Shown here: positions 2,738-15,232 of the stretch, piece by piece
Position numbering within the stretch: the first letter of the stretch is position 1
Layout of the letters: every line of letters starts with the position of its first letter
Source: an archaeon
Lineage (GTDB): Archaea > Nanobdellota > Nanobdellia > Woesearchaeales > GW2011-AR9
Assembly (NCBI GenBank): GCA_023266155.1
Contig: JAHFRS010000006.1
Location: forward strand, 2,754 to 21,264
DNA: 18,511 nt
Reading direction: 5' to 3'
Notes under the pieces: model-generated
The model's input: only the letters and a program-made list of their open reading frames with translations
Databases searched by the model: none
Told to the model about the DNA's origin: nothing
Made by a program: the position numbers and the translations under genes

Positions 2738-2803
2738 TGTCGTTTTTGAGCTGTAAGTGGTAAATTTAGTACTAAAATAAAAAAAAGAAAGCCCCCGGCG
2801 AGA

Positions 2804-2835
2804 CTTTCCAAGAGACCAATGTTCAAGATCCCTTC
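2804..2835 (-). other. tRNA-Thr intron 2 (T loop, 59/60)
   Basis: This 32-nt intron lies inside the T loop. The T stem GCGAG/CTCGC is the outer helix. The central helix is TTCA/GGAA with an A-G mismatch, and the bulges are AAG and AGT. An 8-bp internal stem AAGGGATC/GGTCTCTT (two G-U pairs) closes a 9-nt loop. Excision gives TTCAAAT. Non-canonical introns of this kind are known from some Thermoproteales and a few other archaea. Confidence 0.85.
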
Positions 2836-2857
2836 TTTGAACTCGCGACCCCCTGAT

Positions 2858-2893
2858 CTCTCTGATCGCGTGTGATTAATTCACCACAACTCT
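2858..2893 (-). other. tRNA-Thr intron 1 (37/38)
   Basis: This 36-nt intron lies in the anticodon loop. The BHB fold has the anticodon stem as outer helix, a central 4-bp helix CTTG/AGAG with one G-A mismatch, and 3-nt bulges TAA and AGA. Cutting after the second bulge base leaves the seven-base loop CTTGTAA. A weaker internal helix is formed by GTG/CAC and TGA/TCA. Confidence 0.85.
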
Positions 2894-3002
2894 TACAAGT
2901 CAGGTGCTCTGGCCACTGAGCTACGGAGGCTTATTTGGAAGAGAAAGAAGGCTCTTTATTAAGGTTTTTATGCTTTTGGCGAGCAGCGTCAGAGTGATTA
3001 AT

Positions 3003-14383: not shown

Positions 14384-14442
14384 CATCAGAGTTCCTTTTG
14401 GTTCATACGGCTGTGGTCTAGTGGTATGATCCGAGCTTCCCA

Positions 14443-14495
14443 TAAAAATTTAAGAAAAGTTTGATGAGAACAGACCTTCCTGAAAGTTTAGAAAG
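14443..14495 (+). other. tRNA-Gly intron 1 (37/38)
   Basis: This 53-nt intron follows A37. In the BHB model the central helix TTCC/AGAA has a C-A mismatch at its inner end, and the bulges are CAT and AGA. Cutting after the second bulge base restores the loop TTCCCAA. Confidence 0.82.
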
Positions 14496-14516
14496 AGCTT
14501 GTGATCCGGGTTCGAT

Positions 14517-14550
14517 GGTCAGGGATTATGGAAGATATCCTCACCGAATG
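14517..14550 (+). other. tRNA-Gly intron 2 (T loop, 59/60)
   Basis: This 34-nt intron splits the T loop. The T stem CCGGG/CCCGG is the outer helix. The central helix TTCG/CGAA is four perfect pairs, and the bulges are ATG and TGT. This is a textbook 3-4-3 BHB. Excision gives TTCGATT, the usual tRNA-Gly T loop. Confidence 0.9.
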
Positions 14551-14638
14551 TCCCGGCAGCCGTATTTTTTAGATAAACTTTTTAAGGCATTTCATATTCC
14601 TTTCACCAACAGGACTGTAAAAAAAGAGGGGAATAATC

Positions 14639-15232
14639 ATGACAATCTGGACAATTGCCAGCACTGGACTTTCTTACATTCTGTCACTTCTCTGGACTTG
14701 GCTGCTCATTTTTGCCGCTCCATTCGCCCAGCCCGCGATGCTGTGGATTATTATCCCCATTTACATCAATTGGATTTTTACGGACTTCTTCCAGGAACGT
14801 AAAGGCACATCACTTGGCAACGCCATCACCAATGGGGCAGTAGTCTTCTGGGTAAGCATTGACTGGAGCAGGACTATCGCCAATAGCTGGCCGGGATTTA
14901 GCATTGCAATTATGGTAAAATTCATTTTAATCCTGCTGACGTTTACCTATGGCCTAATCATTATTGTCCAAGGAATTCGTGGGAAAGATTTTGTGGCAAA
15001 ATTTGGCCGCATCAGAGAAGTCACCTATGTCTTATTGATGTTCACACCGGTAATTTATGATGTGTTGCAGCTCAATCTTCAGAATGTGACTGCCATGATT
15101 CTCTGTGCACCCATCTTTTATTATGTGATGGAGCTGATTGACAGAAAAATATTGCCCAAGTCTAAAGTGATCAGCAAACTAGAAGAGGAGGAAGCAACAC
15201 TAGAGAAATTTCAGGACCACCCAATAGCCTGA
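14639..15232 (+). CDS. Multi-span membrane protein of unknown function
   Basis: The 197-residue protein has about five to six hydrophobic spans and a Lys/Glu-rich C-terminal tail (SKLEEEEATLEKFQDHP). The short polar loop FFQERKGTSLGNA after the second span is the main hydrophilic feature, followed by ITNGAVVFWVSIDWSRT. GAGGGG precedes the ATG. It starts 75 nt after tRNA-Gly. I do not recognise the family. Confidence 0.68.
   Translation: MTIWTIASTGLSYILSLLWTWLLIFAAPFAQPAMLWIIIPIYINWIFTDFFQERKGTSLGNAITNGAVVFWVSIDWSRTIANSWPGFSIAIMVKFILILLTFTYGLIIIVQGIRGKDFVAKFGRIREVTYVLLMFTPVIYDVLQLNLQNVTAMILCAPIFYYVMELIDRKILPKSKVISKLEEEEATLEKFQDHPIA

Follow-up and report, generated by a model that had tools for sequence, protein, structure and literature searches.

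Transposition of tRNA introns in the Thermoproteales was reportedly described by Fujishima et al. in 2010. The same process is treated in the accessible part of PMC4033280, and the multi-intron habit of archaeal tRNA genes is on record in the available text of PMC8450103, with up to three introns per gene and, in Pyrobaculum calidifontis, 71 introns in 46 genes. Position 59/60 is listed among the known archaeal tRNA intron positions in the portion of PMC4090602 at hand. The soil Asgard Atabeyarchaeia and Freyarchaeia carry introns in 92-95% of their tRNA genes, often at non-canonical positions and with several introns in over half of them, as far as the consulted text of PMC11291895 goes. In that they resemble the lineage described here, also non-hyperthermophile archaea with intron-rich tRNAs; unlike it they are Asgard, and neither 59/60 nor the type of endonuclease is named in the part of the report available. 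The splicing endonuclease EndA is reported to be narrow in its alpha4 form, with only the (alpha-beta)2 and epsilon2 forms removing relaxed introns efficiently and recognising the substrate through an Arg and a Trp (PMC6379350, in its accessible part). Two inserted loops, the CSL of 15-18 residues and the 11-residue ASL with its Tyr-Lys, are described in the available portion of PMC12397907. For the Woesearchaeota, the intron paper that we found concerns, in its accessible text, group I introns in rRNA (PMC6125680); no published account of their tRNA introns was found in the literature searched, which covered few subscription papers.

The window, by which we mean the whole stretch of 18,511 nucleotides analysed here, comes from an archaeon of the order Woesearchaeales (genome G000) and contains an archaeal tRNA-Thr(UGU) gene that is very probably functional. 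The precursor would carry two introns of the bulge-helix-bulge (BHB) type, at 37/38 and 59/60. The parts of the gene are as follows.

2791..2930, reverse strand: tRNA-Thr(UGU) gene, acceptor end to acceptor end (sequence reading, ARAGORN, own scanner)
2790, reverse strand: complement of this base is the discriminator U73 (sequence reading)
2894..2930, reverse strand: exon 1, positions 1-37, 37 nt, with anticodon UGU (sequence, ARAGORN)
2858..2893, reverse strand: intron 1, 36 nt, at 37/38 (ARAGORN, folding, pairing count)
2836..2857, reverse strand: exon 2, positions 38-59, 22 nt (sequence, ARAGORN)
2804..2835, reverse strand: intron 2, 32 nt, at 59/60 in the T loop (ARAGORN, pairing, folding)
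2791..2803, reverse strand: exon 3, positions 60-72, 13 nt (sequence, ARAGORN)
2954..2962, reverse strand: TATA-like TTAATAAAG, 24-32 nt upstream of G1 (by eye)
2780..2790, reverse strand: T-rich stretch directly 3' of the gene (sequence reading)

With both introns taken out, as archaeal BHB-type tRNA introns require, the exons form a complete cloverleaf that ARAGORN calls tRNA-Thr(tgt). Taking out the T-loop intron alone yields a tRNA-Thr with a 36-nt intron, and taking out the 37/38 intron alone yields no tRNA call at the locus. The original prediction, that this is tRNA-Thr(UGU), becoming a complete tRNA only once 36 nt at 37/38 and 32 nt at 59/60 are both excised, is thereby borne out, and the junctions it proposed (2857/2894 and 2803/2836) agree with our exon reading. 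It had also foreseen that gene finders allowing a single intron would overlook the gene, which is true for ARAGORN: run on the whole window without introns or with -i 0-1000 it found no tRNA, and at a 70% score threshold it returned 109 candidates in the window, tRNA-Thr(UGU) not among them. In the window no Rfam family scores as high as its gathering threshold, and in a search of the whole genome the Rfam tRNA family scores the gene at 16.2 bits, against a cut-off of 29. Group I introns have a catalytic core and run to hundreds of nucleotides; the introns here do not fit that class, being only 36 and 32 nt long and with no Rfam match in the window. The T-rich stretch is likely the terminator, and TTAATAAAG may be the promoter; by eye, the homologous genes of two other genera (G002 and G012) have a comparable (T)TAATAAAG at roughly that distance.

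These two homologues keep 67 (G002) and 65 (G012) of the 73 mature positions, and their changes preserve pairing, with 49-65 changing from G-C to C-G and 7-66 occurring as G-C, G-T and A-T. The G002 gene has introns of 50 nt at 37/38 and 13 nt at 59/60; that of G012 has 89 nt at 59/60 and no 37/38 intron, so that the 37/38 boundary is set, apart from the usual ambiguity. Since the exons are similar and the introns different across three genera, the exons have been held and the introns have not. A strict pattern for the 5' half of the gene matched 3 of 49 family genomes, the misses meaning little because no mismatch was allowed.

T-loop introns also recur in the surrounding lineage. Among stretches taken by place from five genomes they occur in 19 of 31 tRNA genes (1/1 in G000, 7/8 in its sister species G001, 9/13 in G009, 1/5 in G006 and 1/4 in G016). 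It is quite improbable, given these data, that the locus is a decaying pseudogene in which the T-loop insertion disables Thr(UGU) while another tRNA-Thr reads ACA: all stems are intact, the exons are kept in three genera with pair-keeping changes, and the introns are too frequent to be marks of pseudogenes. The assembly is 83% complete, so an intact copy could be missing from it. Such an intact Thr(UGU) elsewhere, which the original prediction had named as what would overturn it, was nevertheless not found in what is assembled: the 5'-half pattern occurs once, and a tRNA family search of the genome listed 15 places with E no higher than 10, of which 5 exceed the cut-off, and no intact Thr(UGU) is among the readable ones. 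The same search found 8 genes over the cut-off in G001, 3 in G012, and 39 and 42 in G037 and G039, two genomes of the same order.

The T-loop intron fits a relaxed BHB motif in which, with the bulges placed by sequence, the T stem is the outer helix. A 3-nt 3' bulge is made of the last two intron bases and U60; T54-T55-C56 lie opposite GAA in a central helix with an A57xG mismatch, giving 3 of 4 pairs; and the 5' bulge, made of A58, A59 and the first intron base, leads into an 8-bp inner helix. The 37/38 intron likewise forms 3 of 4 central-helix pairs with positions 32-35, with one mismatch, so that both introns show the 3-nt bulges and 4-bp central helix of the BHB motif in relaxed form. That the T stem is the outer helix and that a G-A mismatch occurs had both been predicted; pairing analysis and folding uphold them, the purine mismatch lying beside the short helix. 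With their introns, the T arm folds at -15.9 kcal/mol (z -2.5) and the anticodon arm at -16.4 (z -3.1). The minimum-energy fold of the T arm forms the T stem and the 8-bp inner helix and leaves TTC/GAA unpaired; the central helix is therefore supported by comparison, not by the energy model.

That comparison used a catalogue of 38 T-loop introns from relatives, placed without use of intron sequence. The central helix has four pairs in 22 of them and three in 16, and all three TTC pairs are possible (G-U allowed) in 35 of the 38, against 142 of 1897 other intron places. Position 57 faces its intron base as A-T in 15 cases, G-C in 10, A-C in one and as a purine mismatch in 12, Thr(UGU) included. 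When intron bases were permuted among genes, the observed 25 pairs at 57 were reached in 4 of 10,000 tries (mean 19.6), and in the 26 pyrimidine cases A or G at 57 goes with T or C in the intron (Fisher 2e-6), both figures being weakened because catalogue members are related and were partly drawn by tRNA or repeat searches. By this sequence comparison, position 57 covaries with the T-loop intron in relatives. At 37/38, at least 3 of the 4 central pairs are present in 38 of 43 introns, as against 275 of 1360. The 22-row alignment A2, which holds 22 of 23 short T-loop introns (one near-duplicate Ser intron was left out), shows two-sided changes in the T stem only, the TTC/GAA pairs varying one-sidedly or not at all.

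Some of these insertions are short, as the 13-nt one in G002 shows, and one might suppose that splicing removes the 37/38 intron alone, the mature tRNA keeping the T-loop insertion and with it a larger T loop. Such a loop would break up the contact between D loop and T loop; the insertions reach 141 nt, vary from one orthologue to the next and close with a stretch that pairs with TTCR, and we find retention hardly credible. Our own scanner, a fixed cloverleaf that is blind to intron sequence and covers only introns at 37/38 or 59/60 (some of its anticodon labels being unsafe where a gene has a further intron), scores Thr(UGU) at 24.6, whereas 3 Mb of first-order Markov sequence modelled on the window reach no more than 18.0; a stricter version gives 23.0 versus 17.6 in 8.08 Mb of random sequence. 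The metagenome assembly is fragmented (186 contigs), but with a score so far above random sequence and the same architecture in many genomes, an assembly artefact or chance cloverleaf can practically be dismissed.

We return to a gene that is very probably functional and whose two introns would both be spliced out. In the proposed mechanism, the anticodon stem would serve as the outer helix of the 37/38 intron and the T stem as that of the 59/60 intron; exon loop bases (32-35, or the invariant T54-T55-C56-R57) would pair with the intron just before the 3-nt bulge that holds the 3' splice site; and each intron would form a further helix inside. The tRNA-splicing endonuclease would cut both introns and RtcB would join the exons. 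Exons, conservation, loop pairing, covariation and an EndA gene are seen in the sequence itself; transcription, cutting by a single alpha-type EndA, the order of splicing and ligation are steps that we infer from it.

The original prediction had called the presence of a T-loop intron here notable. It is not peculiar to Thr(UGU): the intron type recurs in a tRNA-Gly(CCC) gene of the same window, in the genus and in the order. The Gly gene, the second two-intron gene of the window, is made up as follows.

14407..14563, forward strand: tRNA-Gly(CCC) gene (own scanner)
14443..14495, forward strand: its intron 1, 53 nt, at 37/38 (own scanner)
14517..14550, forward strand: its intron 2, 34 nt, at 59/60, with 4 of 4 central pairs (scanner, pairing)

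Its T arm with intron folds no better than shuffled sequence (z -0.5). The gene lies concealed beneath a spurious open reading frame at 14461-14802.

Beyond the window, a covariance model of the T arm with its intron (R1), trained on the 22 rows of A2, recovers, over 15 loci, 14 of the 16 T-loop introns that the scanner had called, and one more that is absent from the scanner list. Within the order, 84 of 118 genomes have a match to it at E up to 0.05; in a phylum sample, at the stricter limit of 0.001, 90 of 194 do, and 16 of the 90 belong to other orders of the class; weak matches in both sets are candidates only. The 20 best matches in other families, each the best-scoring one of its genome outside the window's own genome and not a random draw, are without exception within tRNA genes whose T-loop intron was recognised by the scanner in 16 and by eye in 4; the latter four genes apparently have extra introns, in the D arm or elsewhere. 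Several tRNA genes (L107 17145-17272, L211, L212 and L213) seemingly have D-arm introns too, with up to three introns per gene, and an apparent tRNA-Thr(tgt) in G006 (L107) turned out by eye to be a different tRNA with a D-arm intron. Two tRNA-like genes with a long variable arm and an apparent Phe anticodon (GAA), L019 1500-1608 and L081 13687-13829, are probably Ser or Leu genes with an extra intron that the scanner misread.

In G001, several T-loop introns are near-identical copies of a repeat of 75-95 nt, which we call E1. BLAST detects it in 10 genomes out of 60, every one a member of the window's family. Read by eye, the 19 matches in G000 and G001 fall into T loops in 11 cases and into the anticodon loop of a tRNA-Ala in 2; the other 6 lie elsewhere, with two of them antisense just behind a tRNA and adjoining a partial copy of its 3' end. 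Automatic sorting gave 22 T-loop and 31 other copies, a count that includes duplicates and some misplaced copies and was used only together with the contexts. The E1 pattern was found in 29 stretches of genome_contigs, all Woesearchaeota, Nanoarchaeota, Nanoarchaeia or archaeon by title, and in none of viral_contigs; as a candidate for a known RNA it was rejected, 18 sources of the repeat giving no Rfam match to it. A second repeat, E2, is found in the tRNA-Pro of G001 and the tRNA-Gly(GCC) of G000. E1 and E2 resemble the transposed introns of Thermoproteales: near-identical copies sit in more than one tRNA gene, at both canonical and non-canonical positions. The usual sign of transposition, a similar intron in another tRNA gene, is present for the E1 and E2 introns of other genes. 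Unlike the Thermoproteales introns, E1 also has copies outside tRNA genes, and the T-loop intron of Thr(UGU) is not E1 by BLAST: among the fetched loci both Thr(UGU) introns gave only self-matches, with no copy of E1 and no sign of transposition.

Several further E1 contexts were seen. The tRNA-Ala(UGC) of G001 (L125 1403-1607), between 16S and 23S rRNA, carries a 44-nt T-loop intron besides E1 at 37/38, and some short introns of G000 resemble, by eye, a shrunken E1. Antisense E1-like copies lie just downstream of tRNA genes in L083 (13844-13904), L119 (128-180), L131, L135 and L130, adjoining partial duplicates of the tRNA 3' end, and look like scars of insertion or recombination. Other E1-like repeats (L138, L140, L144, L147, L133 and L155) lie away from any tRNA found, in L140 as inverted pairs, which suggests a REPIN/MITE-like element.

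The enzyme complement was examined by the EndA family PF01974. Of the 60 genomes in the kin sample, 58 have it (G018 as two adjacent pieces), and G019 and G023 gave no match. At E up to 10, each of 12 genomes has one gene over the cut-off and four (G016, G009, G033 and G012) have one extra weak match; the extra matches in G016, G009 and G033, considered as a second EndA subunit, look unrelated by eye, and a highly divergent beta subunit is conceivable. The window genome's EndA has about 200 residues and both Pfam EndA domains, and its best PDB match is the alpha subunit of N. equitans (3iey_A, E 3.6e-37), with M. jannaschii alpha4 (1a79_A, E 1.7e-36) narrowly behind. The Y/H/K triad is present in all 17 EndAs compared, including that of the window's genome. 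The spacer from FG to LSLLE, the site of the CSL or ASL in other enzymes, measures 8-9 residues in 17 of 17, 8 in M. jannaschii and 12 in ARMAN-2, and by spacer length a CSL or ASL insertion is absent from all 17. Each also has a C-terminal Trp; in the alignment, M. jannaschii has a Tyr where the window genome's EndA has this Trp. The latter enzyme is like N. equitans alpha and the ARMAN-2 chain in its C-terminal Trp and unlike N. equitans (alpha-beta)2 and ARMAN-2 epsilon2 in that no beta subunit was recognised and no CSL/ASL-like insertion is present. From sequence, there looks to be one recognisable EndA gene, of alpha type, without the CSL/ASL loops linked to broad specificity. RtcB was found in 12 of 13 genomes and not in the window's own 83%-complete assembly.

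Next to endA, several genomes of the order (L024, L179 and others) encode a conserved protein whose N terminus is winged-helix-like. It has no family match over the cut-off in Pfam or NCBIfam and, considered as a hidden EndA partner, no convincing PDB relative (best E 0.11).

Both intron sites of Thr(UGU) are known, 37/38 as the canonical one and 59/60 as previously listed, and because 59/60 and multi-intron tRNAs are already in print the gene belongs to a known class. Like the multi-intron precursors of Thermoproteales and others, it combines a canonical 37/38 and a non-canonical intron; unlike them, it has a Woesearchaeota-type DPANN host in which 59/60 is the second site that recurs and in which one alpha-type EndA gene was recognised. 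Less ordinary are the lineage-wide T-loop pattern, the mismatch between the type of intron and the recognisable type of enzyme, and the finding that T-loop introns of close relatives are often copies of a dispersed repeat. A wider reading, tentative and to our mind rather doubtful as a whole, is that across the order relaxed-BHB introns in T loops are routinely removed by an EndA that is loop-less and alpha-only, or else assisted by an unrecognised partner, and that in the window's genus E1 seeded many of them. E1 would then become an intron on landing in a tRNA loop, where the universal TTCRA would supply half of the splicing motif, and E1-seeded introns might be, by analogy, the archaeal counterpart of eukaryotic introner elements. 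If true, removal of such T-loop introns by an alpha-only EndA would contradict the published rule that efficient removal of relaxed introns is confined to (alpha-beta)2 and epsilon2.

Searches of the standard one-intron kind pick up no more than a handful of tRNAs in this lineage, and therefore tRNA counts, claims about codon decoding and completeness scores may mislead. The same genomes would offer a direct test of how the type of splicing endonuclease limits intron position and, because orthologous tRNAs of sister species have different introns at the same site, may be a place to catch the gain of tRNA introns.
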